Below, piece after piece: positions 5,194 through 47,483 of a stretch of 64,000 bases of DNA. Made by a program: the position numbers and the translations under genes. Source of the stretch: Neoarius graeffei. Lineage: Eukaryota; Chordata; Actinopteri; Siluriformes; Ariidae. Positions within the stretch are counted from its first letter, which is position 1. The number at the start of each line of letters is the position of its first letter. The stretch spans positions 34,259,443 through 34,323,442 of the forward strand of contig NC_083571.1 of assembly GCF_027579695.1 (NCBI RefSeq). The letters run 5' to 3'. Under the pieces are notes generated by a model. That model was not told where the DNA came from, did not search any database, and saw only the letters and a list, made by a program, of their open reading frames with translations.

Positions 5194-6652
5194 TTGGCTG
5201 GCAATTTCAATCATGCAGGTCTAAAGAGTGTGTTTCCCAAGATATATCAACATATAGACTTTCCAACATTGTCCATTGTCCCTACATGCTTCAAAGCCAC
5301 CACCATCATCCCTGTCCCAAAGAAGGCGTCGCCCTCCTGTTTCAATGACTATCATCTGGTGGCACTCACCTTCATCCTTATGAAGTGCTTTGAACGGCTA
5401 GTCATGCAACACATTAAGCCTATCCTTCCCCCCTCCCTGGACCCCTTCCAATTTGCATATCGGTCCAATCACTCGATCAGTGATGCCATCTCCACTGCCC
5501 TCCACACAGCCCTCACACATTTAGACACAAAAGATTCTTATGTTAGAATGCTATTCATTGATTTCAGCTCAGCATTTAACACTATCATCCCCCAACAGCT
5601 CATTTTCAAACTGGACAGGCTGGGGCTGAACACCTCACTGTGCAACTGGCTGTTAGACTTCCTGACCGGGAGACCACAGGCAGTACGGGTCAGCAGTAAC
5701 ACATCCAGCACCATCACACTGAACACGGGGGCCCCCCCAAGGATGTGTGTTGAACCCCCTTCTATTTACTCTGCTGACACACGACTGCACACCAACGCAC
5801 AGTTCTAACCTCTTCATCAAGTTTGCAGATGACACAACTGTGATGGGTCTCAGCAACAACGATAAGACAAACAACAGGAGTGAGGTGAGCTGCCTGGCCT
5901 TGTGGTGCAGACACAACAATCTCTCTCTGAACATTGATAAGATGAAGGAGATTGTTGTGGACTTCAGGAAAATGCACATCCAGCATGCTCTAACCATCAA
6001 CGGTACTGCCGTGGAGAGGGTGAGCAGCACCAAGTTCCTGGGAGTGCATGTCTCAGAGGACCTGTCCTGGAGCAACAACACAGCATCACTGGCCAGGAAG
6101 GCTCATCAGCGCCTCTACTTCCTCCGCAAGCTGAGAAGAGCTAGAGCCCCAACCCCCATCATGTGCACCTTTCACAGAGGCGCCATTGAGAGCATCCTGA
6201 CCATCTGTATCACTGTGTGGTACGGCGCCTGCACCATGTCCTGCCGCAAGACCCTCCAGCACATCATGAGAGCAGCTGAGAAGATCGTCGGCACCTCTTT
6301 CCCCTCCCTCCAAGACATACACAGCACCCGCCTCACTCAGAAAGATCTCTGCATGGCAGGTGATCCTACCCACCAACTACACAGCTTTTTCAGCCTGCTG
6401 CCATCAGAGAAGAGACTGCAGAGTCTCCAAGCTAAAACCAGCAGACTGAGGGACAGCTCTGTCCACCAGGCTGTCAGGATGCTCAACTGTCTCTCTGCTC
6501 TGCCCCCCCCTTTTGGCCCCTGCACACACAAACTTTGGATCCTGATCCCCCCTCCCCCATTAATACCAGACTTTGCCATCATCAAGAACTGGTTACGCAC
6601 ACATCACTTTAGGCAGTCTATAAGCTCATCCAATTTGCACTACTGTTTATAA
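5194..6652 (+). pseudogene. L2-type reverse transcriptase, frameshifted
   Basis: Two overlapping open stretches, 5194-5808 and 5747-6652, together cover the reverse transcriptase core, thumb and C-terminal region. The frame break falls in the conserved block just before the FADDT motif. The second stretch carries FADDTTVMGL, STKFLGV and the C-terminal RAAEKI/LLPS region typical of L2/CR1 elements. It can make no full protein. It lies between the Gypsy element and the gene at 10389. Confidence 0.8.
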
Positions 6653-7110
6653 TGGCACTAGTCATACCCACAGACTTACCCCTGAAATCTGTTAGGTGCC
6701 TATGTCACTTTATTGTTCTGATGTCAATATCAGGGACTTTTATATTTATCTTTTATATGTCTTTTATATATTTTATATATCTCATAGGGCGGCACGGTGG
6801 TGTAGTGGTTAGCGCTGTCGCCTCACAGTAAGAAGGTCCGGGTTCGAGCCCCGTGGCCGGCGAGGGCCTTTCTGTGCGGAGTTTGCATGTTCTCCCCGTG
6901 TCCGCGTGGGTTTCCTCCGGGTGCTCCGGTTTCCCCCACAGTCCAAAGACATGCAGGTTAGGTTAACTGGTGACTCTAAATTGATCGTAGGTGTGAATGG
7001 TTGTCTGCTCACTTCAGCTCGCTTCAGCTCACTTCAGCCCGACACGGCTCGCGTTTCGACTACCAAAAACCAGCACGACTCAGCTCGTTTCAGCCCTGCT
7101 TAGCTCCTAA

Positions 7111-12768: not shown

Positions 12769-12839
<71 letters not shown>
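12769..12839. repeat. (GATA)n microsatellite at a LINE 3' end
   Basis: About 17 units of GATA abut the 3' end of the minus-strand LINE that follows, so the tract probably grew from that LINE's tail. Confidence 0.95.
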
Positions 12840-13550
12840 TTATTGTCATTCACCTGTACTTTCAGAATGCACATTTGAGCAAAATTTCGTTCCACTGGCT
12901 TACGTCATAAAACTGCTGCATATAACTATTGCACATAGTCCGGTAAACACAATGTCAAATTTTACGATTTGATACTTTAAAAAAAAACTTGAATAAAATA
13001 TACTAACTATGCTACATATATTAAATATTAAGTATATTGCACAACAAAGGATATTATAGCAGCATGTAGGATATTGCACATATTCTGGATAATGAGGTAC
13101 TTGTCCAGATATATATGGTAGGGGATTATTTAGAGCTCAGGAGTCTGATGGCTTGGGGGGGAAAGCTGTTACAGAACCTGGTTGTTCTTCTCCGGATATT
13201 GTGGAACCTCCTGCCAGAGGGCAGCAGGGAGAACAGTCCGTGATGCGGATGGGTGAGGTCTTTTATAATGTTCTGAGCCCTGGTCAGACAGTGTTTGACT
13301 GCAATGTCTTGGATGGAAGGCAGAGACATCCCAGTGATCCTTTCTGCTGTCCTCACCACTCTTTGCATGAGGGTCAATGACATGACGCCTATATTTTCTG
13401 TCCAACTGCAATTTCTTCAGTTAAAAAGTGTTTAAATTTCATAATAATTTACCACATATATGTAGTACATGTGACCTCCATGGAACTAAATCTTTTTTTC
13501 AGAAATAATTAGTTAGCATGCAATTTTTTTGTCCTCAAAGTGTTAAAAAG

Positions 13551-15955
13551 TCATGTGGTGCGACCGTCCGACCTTAACTGCTGATTTTTAAACTTTTTAA
13601 AAATTACTCTAAATCTAATCAAATTTATTGTCTTTCTTTTTTGGCATATTTTCTGAAGTGTTTTGTAGTCCCACATGAAATTTCAGCTTTCTTGAATATA
13701 TATTTTCCCCATAATATACAAACAAATAATGTCCGAGCCTGTCTATTTTTCCAAATATCATGTGGTGCGACCATCAAGAAATTACCATTTTGGGACTTTT
13801 ATTTTAAATCCAAGTGAAAGACATGAAGTTGCATCATTCATCAATAGGCAAAGGACACATGGAATCAACAGGCAGGTCTGTAACCCTCTTTCATACATTT
13901 CTAAAAGTAATGATTTTAAGTGCTGTGATGCTGTTGCCATATTTGGATGTCATGCGGTATGAACCCAAAAAGAAAACTATAATACAGTTTTATTTACAAA
14001 TGTATATTTTGATAATATAGTTCAAGGTGACCTTCTGTCAGAAACCAGCTAGTTTCATTACAGTGGCTAATGCTAGGTCTGTAAATTTTCACTGAATCTA
14101 GAAAACATCATTTGGTGCGACCAATATCATGTGGTGCGACCATTGCAGGATACTTTGAATTACTTGTATACATTAAAGAGCTACATTTATTGTGCTTCAA
14201 AAGTTATTTTCATGATTAATACAAACAAAGGATTGATTGTAAAATATGTTTTTCCCATTTTTGAGTATTTTTTGTGTATTTCAGGAACAACGAGTTATAA
14301 TTCATATTTCATAGTATAATTAGAAAAAACATAAAAAGTAAGTGAGATCTTGTCACTGCGATAACATATATTTCCTATTTTATATATATTTATATATTTT
14401 AACTGTTTTTAATGTGGTTTTTTTTCAATCAGATGCCACTGTCCAGCAAAATAAAGACTGCCCGCCATAGGGAGCAGGTCAACTCTGACCCAGCAGTATT
14501 AGACCTCACCCCACCATCTATGGAGAGCATTCCACCAGCTCTCCTTAATGTAGCTGTAGCTCCCAACCCATCCGGAAATGTGAATCTAGTGGACCCAATA
14601 TTGAATGACGATTTTAGTCCACCAGTGGTGTCCACACCAGTGAGAGATGAGAGAAGGGATAAGTCAGGCCAGAAACTTTGCAAAAAATTGCAGCAGGAGA
14701 AGATAATGCTTAAAAAGCAAGTCTTGCATCTCAGGAAAAAGCTGATGGAAATGCAGAATAATGAAAAATAAAAGTAGAAAGCGTGAGATGAGAATGATGG
14801 AAATGCAAAGGAAAGTGAGAAGTGGAAAGGTCAAACAAAAGGGTCAGAAGAGACTGTCAGCTGAGAGAAAGCAAGCTGTTATACAGTTTTTGTTGAGAGA
14901 TGAAAACAGTTGCCTTCTACCTGGAAAAAAAGACACAATCACGAAAAATAAACAAAGAGTACAAAGAAGAGTCCTGATAAAGCCTCTCAAAGAGCTCCAC
15001 ACACAGTATCAAACAGAGGTAGAACAGCACCTGTTCATGTCTTACAGACAGTTTACCCGACACAGGCCCTTTTACATTACAGAGCCAAAGTTACGGGACC
15101 GAGATACATGTGCATGTTCAGAACATGAGAACATCCGACTGTTGGCGAACAAACTAGCGAAGACAGGGCTGCTGAAGACAACCAGTGCCTCGGAGTTAGT
15201 GGGAATGATTGTGTGTGACCCCAAAAACAAAGCATGTATGGATCGTGTGTGTCCCGAATGCTGCTTTGATGAAATCATCTTCCCGGAGACAGACAACTGT
15301 GAGACTACATCCTGGGAACAATGGGAGCGGGTGACATCAACTAATGGAGACAAAAACTTTGCACATGTTGTAGACTTGTTGTGCACTGTTGTGAATGAGA
15401 AAAAGTGAAAACTGAAATGACAATGTTGTGAAAAGAAGTAGACATGAAATGGAAAAAAAGATTAAATTTTCATTTTCACTGAGTGTTAAAAGGCAATAAA
15501 ATTTGATTTAATCATGCATGTTGCTTGCACTTTATCTGTTACTAATTTATTGCTATTTGTTTTGCCAATATGAGGATTTCCTGTCATTTGGTGCGACCAT
15601 GCATCATATGGCACGACCAAAAATAGCAGTAATTTTCTCAAAATAAGAATATGGCATTTCACTTCTATGGCTGGAATTTTAATAACTGACAAAGTTTACT
15701 TGGGTGGATGTTGTTCTTCAGGTATTTTTTCTTCATTTTGTACATTTTATAAGGAAAAGTCTTGTTTTAATTAGACGCAAGCAGGTGACTGCCATATTGG
15801 ACATCAAAAGAAAATAACAATATGCATTAAAAGTCAAAATAAATGTCAATGGGTTGTTTCTATACGCATCATACTACTCAGAACTTAGATTAATATCCAA
15901 ACCATGTTTTGGAAAATAAAACAATTTTAAGGTTATTCTCGGTCACACCACATGA
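13551..15955. repeat. Seven copies of a 16-bp motif TCATKTGGTGCGACCA
   Basis: Direct copies are at 13551-13566, 13758-13773, 14108-14123, 14127-14142, 15584-15599 and 15604-15619 (the last degenerate), and an inverted, one-base-different copy is at 15941-15955. All lie inside the 13371-16134 element, on both sides of its coding part and none within it. Four are arranged as two close pairs (14108/14127 and 15584/15604, starts 19-20 bp apart). This layout suggests protein-binding sites, for example for the transposase; that role is inference. Confidence 0.85.
14433..15408 (+). pseudogene. Transposon-borne uncharacterised protein, N-terminal part, frameshifted
   Basis: Two overlapping frames make one protein: 14433-14771 and 14761-15408, joined by a one-base shift near 14765. 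The first part is acidic and proline-rich and then becomes a Lys/Glu-rich coiled coil (LCKKLQQEKIMLKKQV). The second is basic and then shows a Cys-rich section (DRDTCACSEHEN, CDPKNKACMDRVCPEC) and a W-x-QW motif. I recall long fish and invertebrate uncharacterised proteins with this arrangement, followed by an RNase H-like region that is absent here. The start ATG directly follows a T-rich tract and CAG, so an acceptor at 14430-14432 is possible. The reading ends at 15406-15408. Confidence 0.6.
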
Positions 15956-16735
15956 CATTTTTTAAGGTTGTAGCCAATTCATGTACATAAAAAACACTAA
16001 AAATGCCCAATATGAATATCAAAAATATATTTATGCATACCTGACATTGTAAATATTTGAACATTCTCAATAGAAATTAATATTTTTTATATTTTAAAAT
16101 TTGCAAGTTGAAAATCCTTATCCGTCATTGACCCATGATCTTCCAGTCTGAGGCTGTGCAGTCCCCAAACCAGACAGAGATGCAGCTGGTCAGTACACTC
16201 TCTATAGTGCTCCTATAGAAAGTGGTGAGGATGGGAGGGGGGAAGTATGATCTTTTTATCCAGTGTAGAAAGTGCAGGCACTTCTGTGCTCTCTTCGCAA
16301 GAGAGGTAATGTTGAGGGACCAAATCAGACTGTCCGTGATCTGCACCCCCAGGAACTTGGTGCTGCTGGCTAACTCCACCGCGGTGTCATTGATGAGAAA
16401 TGGTGTGTGACTGTGCCTATTTCTTCTTAAGTCCACAATGATCTCATTTGTTTTTTTCAAAATTCAGGACCGGGTTGTTTTCATTGCACCAGTCCACCAG
16501 CTGTTTCATCTCTTCCCTGTAGGCCTGTTCATTGTCATCCTGAATGAGGCCAATCACTGTCGTGTCGTCTGCATACTTCACAATGTGATTTGTACTGAAC
16601 CTGGCCCAGCAGTCATGGGTCATCAGGGTGAACAGTAATGGACTCAGGACACAGCCCTGAGGGGAGCCGGTATTCAGGGAGATGGCGCTGGAGATGAGAC
16701 AGCTTTCCAGCCCATACAGATTGGACCAACTTGAA

Positions 16736-18006: not shown

Positions 18007-18385
18007 TGGGCGGCATGGTGGTGTAGTGGTTAGCACTGTCACCTCACAGCAAGAAGGTCCTGGGTTTGAGCCCAGCGGCCGGTGAGGGCCTTTCTGTGTG
18101 GAGTTTGCATGTTCTCCCCGTGTCCGCGTGGGCTTCCTCTGGGTGCTCCGGTTTCCCCCACAGTCCAAAGGCATGCAGGTTAGGCTAATTGGTGGCTCTA
18201 AATTGACCGTAGGTGTGAATGTGAGCGTGAATGGTTGTCTGTGTCTATGTGTCAGCCCTGCGATGACCTGGCAACTTGTCCAGGGCGTACCCTGCCTTTC
18301 GCCCGTAGTCAGCTGGGATAGGCTCCAGCTTGCCTGCGACCCTGTAGGACAGAATAAGCGGCTACAGATAATGGATGGATGGATG
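18007..18385 (+). mobile_element. tRNA-derived SINE, full length
   Basis: It has the tRNA-like head with boxes A and B, the conserved body and a (GGAT)n tail. The target duplication AATGAAAAGC is exact at 17997-18006 and 18386-18395. Confidence 0.95.
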
Positions 18386-18529
18386 AATGAAAAGCAGAAT
18401 CATAGAAATATTTACAGATTTTTTTTAGACTTCCAGTATTTCAGAATGAGCAGAAACAAAATATTTTGAACAGCTGATGTGGTAAAGTGAAAATGATATG
18501 ATATCTCATCTCGTCTCGTCTTCTTCCTC

Positions 18530-27944: not shown

Positions 27945-28313
27945 AGTGGCACAGTGGTGTAGTGGTTAGTGCTGTCGCCTCACAGCAAGAAGGTCCGGGT
28001 TCGAGCCCCGTGGCCGGCGAGGGCCTTTCTGTGCGGAGTTTGCATGTTCTCCCCGTGTCCGTGTGGGATTCCTCCGGGTGCTCCGGTTTCCCCCACAGTC
28101 CAAAGACATGCAGGTTAGGTTAACTGGTGACTCTAAATTGACCGTAGGTGTGAGTGTGAATGATTATCTGCGTCTATGTGTCAGCCCTGTGATGACCTGG
28201 CAACTTGTCCAGGGTGTACACCGCCTTTTGCCCGTAGTCAGCTGGGATAGGCTCCAGCTTGCCTGCGACCCTGTAGAACAGGATAAAGCAGCTAGAGATA
28301 ATGAGATGAGATG
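27945..28313 (+). mobile_element. tRNA-derived SINE, full length
   Basis: Same family as at 18007. The exact target duplication AACTCTTGTGTC is at 27933-27944 and 28314-28325. Confidence 0.95.
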
Positions 28314-40264: not shown

Positions 40265-42522
40265 TAGCAGATAGTGCCAATCATTTAGTACACTGCGTAC
40301 ACAAATTAAATACAGATATTGCTGCAAGTTACATTTGATCTGTCAATCACAGACTTTACTACATCACCACTCACCTTTCCTTTCAGTTCTCTGGCTGTTT
40401 ATTGCTCCAGTGCTAATGTTAGCTGACTAATTAGCGAAGTTAAAGCTCAAGTTATCTATCAGGTGTTAAGAAATTAGCTGAGTTCAATGAGCGCAAACTA
40501 ATGTTAGTGAAACTGTTTCATTAGCCAATTCAACTAGCTAATAATGGGCTAACTAGTATAACATGCAAATGAAACAGAGCAGCTAGGTTTGTTAGAAAGC
40601 TAGCTTTTAACTATTATATTATGTATGATATTATCTATTATATTGTGTAATCAGAAAGTTTTAAAAGAACTAAACTGCCAAGTAAATTATTTAATTTGGT
40701 AATTTAGATCAATAGCCAAGATAACATTAGGTGATGTATTAAAACCAGCAGCTAAGTTTGACATGAAGCTAACTAACATTAGGCTATACCAGGGCTATTC
40801 AAATACATTTGCAGGGGGGCCAAACTAGAAAATTATAAAATTTGTGAGGGCCGGAGGGGCAATTGACATAAAATTGATATCAGCTAAAGGCAATTAAAAT
40901 ATACTATACTAAGGTACATAATATATGAAATAAAATAAGGTACATTATTCTTTGCCTTTCCTTTACTATGAAAGCATTCGACACATTCAACAACATGTAA
41001 TGATTACAACAAAAGCTTCCCTAAGTGCAAAACTGCAAATGCAAATACTGCATAAGCCCTGGGGTGATGATAACAAGTATACTGAGAAATATACACAGCT
41101 TTTACCCTTAAAACAGTAAACATAAGTAATAGCTTATATAACAAATTCAGACAATCAAAATAAAGCTGCCATAAGTGCAAACTGCAACTGCAGTTTCAAG
41201 TCTCATCTCATCTCATCATCTGTAGCCGCTTTATCCTGTTCTACAGGGTCGCAGGCAAGCTGGAGCCTATCCCAGCTGACTACGGGCGAAAGGCGGGGTA
41301 CACCCTGGACAAGTCACCAGGTCATCACAGGGCTGACACATAGACACAGACAACCATTCACACTCACATTCACACCTACGGTCAATTTAGAGTCACCAGT
41401 TAACCTAACCTGCATGTCTTTGGCCTGTGGGGGAAACCGGAGCACCCGGAGGAAACCCACGCGGACACGGGGAGAACATGCAAACTCCACACAGAAAGGC
41501 CCTCGCCGGCCACGGGGCTTGAACCCAGACCTTCTTGCTGTGAGGCGACAGCGCTAACCACTACACCACCGCGCCGCCCGCAGTTTCAAGTATCAAATCT
41601 TATTTGGGGTGATAACATTCAAATATCCCTGAAATATACCTTTAAAACAGTACACATTTTAAAACGAGATCAACATTTCAAGTGTACAGTAAGTAAGTAC
41701 AAATCTGCTAATTAAAACAATATGTGCTGTAAACATACTCTTGATGGAAACTAACTACTAACAAGAATAGTTTTTTCCTCATTTAGTTTACCTTATTTAT
41801 CAGTGAGCTCTCTCTTGTTCTGTGCAAAAGCCACCAATTGCACGCTGACTTTGTTCAAAAGAAGTTACCAGTCTGTCTATTCTCCTTCGTCTCTCCTCGG
41901 AGCCCTCTCGGTATTGCTCAGAAAATGAAGCATGTTTTGTTGTAAAATGTCTCTTCACGTTGTACTCTTTGGCCACAGCTACGGATTCGTTACACAATAA
42001 ACGCACAGGTCTATCGCTTGCCGTAGTTGGCAAAGTAAATAAGTACTTTTCAGTCCATTCGCTTTGAAATTTATGGTTTTCTCTGTCAACTTTGCGATGT
42101 TGCTTGGACAGCGCCATGTTGCCACTGCTGTAGCTGCATGGAGTGTGTCACATCGCGAGAATCGGTGAGAATGAGTGTTTGTCACCATGGAGACGACCTG
42201 TACTCTGGTCTGTGCCAGAGCGGTAGAGAAAACTGCGCACCGCGGCAGATACGTAGATATGTTTTTTTTTTAAATCTGCTGCGGGCCGGATTAAATTTCA
42301 ATCGGGCCAATTTCGCCCCCGGGCCGCTATTTGAATAGGCCTGGGCTATACTATCACAAGACGTGTGTTCAAAAGTTTCTCACAAGCTAAATAAAGTATG
42401 ATATAAAAAGTGTGTGTGTGTAACATTCTCACAGAATAAATGTAGCGTAGAGTAGCGTGTGTTTGTACAAAGCAGAAATAGCAGGATGCTGTAATGTGGA
42501 TCACATAGCAGATAACAGTCGA

Positions 42523-45500: not shown

Positions 45501-47483
45501 GAATTAAAAGAGAGGAGTTTTGTGATGGGTGGCACGGTGGTGTAGTGGTTAGCGCTGTTGCCTCACAGCAAGAAGGTCCGGGTTCAAGCCCCGTGGCCAG
45601 CGAGGGCCTTTCTGTGCGGAGTTTACATGTTCTCCCCGTGTCCGTGTGGGTTTCCTCCGGGTGCTCCGGTTTCCCCCACAGTCCAAAGACATGCAGGTTA
45701 GGTTAACTGGTGACTCTAAATTGATCGTAGGTGTGAATGTGAGTGTGAATGGTTGTCTGTGTCTATGTGTCAGCCCTGTGATGACCTGGCGACTTGTCCA
45801 GGGTGTACCCCGCCTTTCGCCCGTAGTCAGCTGGGATAGGCTCCAGCTTGCCTGCGACCCTGTAGAACAGGATAAAGTGGCTAGAGATAATGCGATGAGA
45901 TGAGATGGATTTTGTGATTTGGAGTCACCAAAGAGTCACTAATTCAAAAAAAAAAAAGGAATTAAAAGAAATGGACTCAGAAAAAGGAAAAAATGGCAGA
46001 GAGAGAGAGAGAAATTCAGGATCACAACTGAGTCACAGGATAAATGAATCATTTTAGGAAAAATGAATGATGATTCTGAATCACTTCTGACAGGCGACTG
46101 AAAAAAGAGATAAATAAAATGATTGTTTAGTCAGACAACAATGTTTTCAAGAGTTGAGTCTGAACTTTCTAAAAGTTGATGAACAGATAAATATCAGGAA
46201 AGCACCAGCGTGGTGGATTTCGGTCTGACACACCTGTCTGAGCTCCTATAGAGATTTCTATCAAAGTGAGTATTTACAGCAGCTTTCTGCTGCCAGTACA
46301 GAGATTTATCAAGCTTTTGTTTTGTGAGTGTAAACCCAGTGTGAGATTGTTCAGGACGTGCAGAAGCAGCTGAAGTGTTAGCAGTTGTAAATGTCTTTGA
46401 GGTGGATCATTACAGCAATTTCGGCAGCAGCAGCAGCAGCACAGGAACACATTGATATCAGGGCACACAGCGGGAACACAGTGTTTGTGTATTTGTGTAA
46501 AAACTCAGACAAATCAGCAGAGCACCTCAATACACAGTGCGCTTGTGCTCATTTCAATACAAGGAAAACACTTCCCCAAATTCTTTATTCAAGTCAACTT
46601 TTCCATCTCAGTTTTATCGCTAATTACCAATAAAGCAATGCTGAATAAAATCAGTCCGCTCCTCTAGCCCACCTGAATCCCCAAGACGTAGTTATCCTTG
46701 TTGCGGCGACTCAGCGTCCCGACTGACACCAGCGCTCCCTGAGACGTGATGTCAAACGTGTGATCCTCGTTACCGTTGATGATGGAGAAGGAGAACGGCG
46801 GCCCGTTGTGTGAGGCGTCTCGGTCTGATACGCTCAGCTGGAGGACACTGGTCCCCACTGGACGGTTCTCCTACACATAAAACACACACAGTATTCATTC
46901 ATTAACGCACATATATGTATTGCACTTCCCCAAAAACGATTCACATACAGCATCTCCGCCCACTTGGTAAGTGTTTTTGGGTAAATGAATAACCCCAGGT
47001 GACTGAATTAAAAGAGTGGGGTTTAATAGTTCATGAATCAAATTCAGGTACAAGGTGAATCAACTGATTCGGTAAAAGAAAAGATTCAGATTTACACACC
47101 GAGTAAGAGAGAATGAGAAAGAGGATGGCTTATTGTTAAAATTTTCAATTGAGAATCACCACTGAGTAATTAAAAAGAGCACTCAATCATTTCAGTAATT
47201 TGAATTATGAAAGAGGGTTTGAGGTTTGACACGAATCACGCACAAATGTAAAGGAATCAATACAGCACATAAATTAAGATTAAGATTTACCTGGAAGAAG
47301 GAGAACAAGACAGAGACAGCAAAGATTTGTCTCTGTCTCTATTTGTTCGAGATTTCATGACTTACAGAGTGTTTTACAGGATAAATGAATCATTTCAATC
47401 AATGAATCATTAAATGACTAACAAGGAAAAGGAACTGATTCGGAAAATGGAAAAAAGAGAGAGAAAGAGGGAAACACACATAT

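Follow-up and report, generated by a model that had tools for sequence, protein, structure and literature searches.

An internally deleted DNA transposon, most probably a Sola element, at an ATGA site within a LINE reading frame

A cut-and-paste DNA transposon interrupts a LINE at an ATGA site, and we consider it very likely that this element is an internally deleted, non-autonomous copy belonging, most probably, to the Sola superfamily. It occupies positions 13371..16134 (+; 2764 bp) of the window, by which we mean the whole 64,000-nt stretch of DNA analysed, and it is delimited by its ends, its target duplication, the restoration of the LINE frame and its homology to transposases of the DDD/E type. 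The first-pass annotation had described a DNA transposon with exact boundaries and a 4-bp duplication inside a LINE; both the ends and the LINE frame agree with this, and a real insertion is confirmed. The same annotation left the transposon unclassified: the transposon and its boundaries stand, and what it missed is that the element is an internally deleted copy from a large animal transposase family.

The inverted ends, GGGTCAATGAC, are both exact (13371..13381 on the plus strand, 16124..16134 on the minus strand), and the inverted match between them is 11 bp long with none beyond. At this one insertion site ATGA abuts both ends, at 13367..13370 on the left and 16135..16138 on the right by comparison of the flanks, so that the ends and duplication reported earlier were both found again in the same places. 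There is no second copy of the element within the window, where its sole matches are to itself and to the motifs it contains. As a separate observation, the window contains a repeat of about 370 bp at about 18007-18388, with seven further near-full copies of 85-93% identity (at 27948, 29854, 31857, 41204, 45526, 51854 and 55474) and four partial copies (at 6787, 8944, 21998 and 37572); some copies are arranged as inverted pairs, such as 41204-41579 with 45526-45910.

The minus-strand LINE frame enters the element from its right side. When the element and one ATGA are removed, this frame reads DWKIM and then QRVVRTAERITG across the joint, and continues unbroken to its stop. The upstream part of the frame (16139..16463, -) and the downstream part with the stop (13126..13370, -) were defined from the ORF list, the joining of the frames and an alignment with another LINE copy; for the upstream part there is also a Pfam match, to PF09004, in the right-hand LINE piece at 16128-16463 (E 1.1e-13). 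This model frequently matches the C-terminal part of fish LINEs. The other copy, at 5933-6487 (+) of the same window, is independent and is 45% identical to the interrupted LINE over 186 aa, with a single gap that lies elsewhere and none at the insertion point; to judge from this alignment, it represents a LINE of this kind that has diverged further and is uninterrupted at that point. The restoration of the LINE frame that had been reported is borne out by both the open frame and the second copy. A GATA microsatellite lies at 12769-12843, about 290 bp past the stop of the interrupted frame.

The element contains two coding pieces that sit in different frames and both align with the N-terminal half of a transposase some 760 aa long. 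The first (14433..14756, +; ORF list, homology and coiled-coil prediction) corresponds to the N-terminus of the truncated transposase and a predicted coiled coil, and has lost 58 residues in frame relative to the full-length relative P0010. The second (14761..15405, +, in a frame open from 14746; ORF list and homology) corresponds to a helical domain with conserved Cys and His residues, and stops before the catalytic core. A search with the second piece gave 23 relatives at E <=0.01 among 268 candidates, the nearest named ones being from the fish Myxocyprinus, Myripristis, Epinephelus and Cirrhinus; to judge from these, the host is very probably a fish. When 120 relatives were compared with the noncoding parts of the element (13371-14433 and 15396-16134), there was no match at E <0.07 and no remnant of a catalytic region; therefore, the window copy shows no catalytic domain. 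For the two coding pieces, Pfam gave nothing above the cut-off, a PDB sequence search with the window piece gave a single match (E 0.28), and Foldseek with the N-terminal piece gave two (E 8.8 and 9.3). To judge by its coding content, the element has undergone internal deletion and is non-autonomous.

The best match of the second piece, P0003, is a protein of 331 aa from another contig (2669 bases, source tag lgn), in which the same truncated protein is encoded in one unbroken frame. P0003 and the window protein differ at 6 of the 322 residues compared, and have in common their start (MPLSS), their N-terminal loss and their C-terminal tail. Relative to P0010, both are without residues 21-78 (the 58 residues mentioned above, among which basic positions are conserved) and have nothing from about residue 370 on, a region that includes the catalytic core. 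P0003 may be a further copy of the element; alternatively, it may represent this very locus in a different individual or in a sister species. In a tree built from the window piece together with 45 relatives, hand-picked from those found, the window piece and P0003 are paired with a support of 1.000; the pair stands beside relatives that, where named, are fish, at an exact place that is unsupported (0.055).

The first-pass annotation proposed a search for full-length relatives with an intact protein, and such relatives exist: the nearest long ones (P0004, P0010, P0012 and P0014) have 693-761 aa. A search with P0010 gave 110 related proteins among 6241 candidates, and a search with an alignment of 27 sequences gave 281 relatives among 7984 scored, with 120 of these listed. 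Among the matches listed, the named relatives come from fish, moths, butterflies, beetles, bugs, bivalves and one spider, and by homology the coding part of the truncated element belongs to a large and widespread family of animal transposases. One member, P0210, is recorded under Sedimenticola, a bacterial bin, which probably reflects contamination from an animal host. Viral contigs and genome contigs that were searched for relatives gave pattern matches, none of which was confirmed, and the phages searched gave no match.

The full-length relatives are predicted, by modelling, to consist of an N-terminal part with basic, coiled-coil and Cys/His regions, an RNase H-like core and a C-terminal Tudor-like barrel. 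The predicted core is an integrase-like RNase H domain with three invariant aspartates, D422, D503 and D545, which are present in 51 of 51 relatives examined; E536, an alternative third residue, is present in 49 of the 51, and the core itself is absent from the window copy. None of nine relatives reached the Pfam cut-off. With the family profile, the PDB sequence search gave seven matches (E 0.038-0.61), the best of them to coiled-coil stretches, and Foldseek with the full-length model gave 602 matches at E <=10 and none at 0.001. The family is unlike retroviral integrases and the Mos1 mariner transposase, to which there was no PDB sequence match and in which other domains surround the core.

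A few relatives carry other Pfam domains, such as zinc fingers. For example, the predicted fish protein P0024 (Anguilla) has an N-terminal part of the transposase joined to C2H2 zinc fingers, and in P0076 (Triplophysa), also a predicted fish protein, the catalytic and C-terminal part is joined, for the most part, to such fingers; these joins are either real fusions or gene-model errors. In P0209, a relative from Mytilus edulis that one source calls Vertnin, a weak OTU-protease-like stretch follows the catalytic core (PF02338, E 0.0079, below the cut-off).

The element carries an array of a short motif, TCATGTGGTGCGACC. When up to three mismatches are allowed, the window has seven copies, all of them inside the element, against a chance level of 1.0 on average and 4 at most in 100 shuffles of the window, and of 0.03 on average and 1 at most in 100 shuffles of the element. 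The copies found by this search are at 13551..13565, 13758..13772, 14108..14122, 14127..14141, 15584..15598 and 15604..15618, all on the plus strand, and, in the opposite orientation, at 15941..15955 on the minus strand. The first, second and fourth are exact, the sixth has three mismatches and the remainder have one each. Two pairs of copies are spaced 19 bp (from 14108) and 20 bp (from 15584), start to start. The outermost copies are mutually inverted and lie almost symmetrically, at distances of 180 bp (left) and 179 bp (right) from the termini. An inverted-repeat search extends this pair to a subterminal inverted repeat of 22 nt with 91% complementarity, the left arm of which (13545..13566, +) lies 174 bp inside the left end and the right arm (15940..15961, -) 173 bp inside the right end. 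The sites are probably binding sites of the transposase.

As to the superfamily, we consider it fairly probable that the transposase family belongs to Sola, an assignment that is judged by features. The published descriptions of Sola, cited here from excerpts, give a DDD transposase, 4-bp duplications and terminal inverted repeats of 11 to 1124 bp (PMC10741241), place Sola in the RNase H-like superfamily (PMC3985635), and report it from zebrafish, medaka and stickleback (PMC4746887) and, as Sola1-3, from bivalves (PMC10294476). The element has a 4-bp duplication, namely the ATGA on both sides whose removal with the element restores the LINE frame at this one site, and exact inverted ends of 11 bp, the minimum in the excerpted range (PMC10741241). 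It also resembles Sola1-3 in the occurrence of its family in fish and bivalves (PMC4746887, PMC10294476), and may do so in the three invariant aspartates (PMC10741241), which are a feature of the relatives and not of the window copy and next to which E536 is an alternative third residue. On the other side, the window copy is internally deleted, the comparison with Sola is with descriptions only, and ATGA, at the one site compared, does not fit the AT-rich AWWT duplications that the excerpt of PMC3627910 gives for three Sola2 families of Dictyostelium. Sola, which the first-pass annotation had named as a candidate, is the best-fitting named superfamily by these published features. Its other suggestion, a poorly described superfamily or a new branch of one, is not established: there is no Pfam name, but a published superfamily description fits. 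A clear match to a known superfamily with another duplication length, which it had held would speak against its reading, was not seen.

We give some, although limited, credence to the reading that the same element has a transposase from a separate animal DDD/E superfamily that also makes 4-bp duplications. This would agree with the mismatch to the AWWT of Sola2 in the source excerpt and with the Pfam results for the element's pieces and the nine relatives, none above the cut-off; moreover, Sola is represented here by description and not by a named Sola protein sequence, and E536, in 49 of 51 sequences, leaves a DDE triad possible. However, apart from AWWT, the Sola features that can be checked against the excerpts (the 4-bp duplication, the 11-bp inverted repeats, the three aspartates and the occurrence in fish) all fit, and bivalves, in which the transposase family also occurs, are reported to hold Sola1-3 (PMC10294476).

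A further reading, compatible with the others and in our analysis doubtful, is that the truncated protein itself has been selected and, like the KP protein of the P element, would bind the motif array and repress its parent. In the P element, as described in the excerpt of PMC7776569, there are 11-bp subterminal inverted repeats, and some repressors, the 207-aa KP protein among them, can be products of copies with internal deletions. In the present case subterminal inverted repeats are likewise found at both ends, the deleted copy likewise keeps N-terminal coding sequence, with the coiled coil and the Cys/His domain retained, and P0003 has the same truncated frame unbroken. Unlike the P element, with its 8-bp duplication and N-terminal THAP domain according to the same source, the element has a 4-bp duplication and no Pfam domain, and its likeness to the P element is one of layout and not of membership.

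It is rather improbable that these two readings combine, so that the element would represent an unregistered animal DDD superfamily near but outside Sola, with P-element-like subterminal sites, whose deletion derivatives spread while their N-terminal frame represses the parent. A text search of the literature for the ends, the motif and words describing the protein returned papers with a match that were unrelated by title.

It is very improbable that the element belongs to Chapaev (CMC) or Ginger: both are described in the excerpts as making 4-bp duplications, in agreement with the present length, but Chapaev has 5'-CAC...GTG-3' termini (PMC4079192) and Ginger TGTNR termini with a Gypsy-type integrase (PMC2836005), whereas the ends here are GGG...CCC, beginning GGGTC, and there was no Pfam integrase match in the nine relatives. 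Kolobok and piggyBac were rejected; the rule of TTAA duplication given for them in the excerpt of PMC9587614 is broken by ATGA.

The ends and the duplication are not significant by themselves, since pairs of perfect 11-bp inverted ends that are flanked by a perfect 4-bp duplicate and lie 300-6000 bp apart occur on average 0.85 times per window in 20 dinucleotide-shuffled windows. The real window contains 922 pairs of this kind, which, among the matches listed, are mainly AT microsatellites and, in some cases, longer inverted repeats. What carries the case is the restored LINE frame, together with the homology to transposases and the motif array inside the element. That the ends and duplication are coincidental, as their frequency in shuffled windows would allow, and that the transposase fragment came by another route is scarcely credible, because the same two points restore the LINE frame, as the second LINE copy confirms, enclose the transposase fragment and bracket the symmetric motif array.

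Returning to the internally deleted Sola-like element, we propose that the transposon inserted at ATGA within the LINE and duplicated those four bases. The window copy retains its ends and the motif array, but of the coding sequence just that of the N-terminal half. Since only this half is present, it is probable either that an intact full-length relative moved the copy in trans or, alternatively, that the catalytic part was lost after insertion; the truncation in common with P0003 favours movement in trans, which we regard as probable. The transposase would probably bind at TCATGTGGTGCGACC, and the two outermost copies, being placed symmetrically, would probably help to pair the two ends. It is possible that the truncated protein represses the parent transposase.

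In other respects the element is ordinary, one damaged representative of a superfamily that is probably known already. Its site offers exact ends, a target whose interruption is clear and putative binding sites in a symmetric arrangement, and its transposase family is widespread in animals, yet without a Pfam match in the proteins tested. The truncated transposase frame that is common to two sequences may bear on how the family controls itself.
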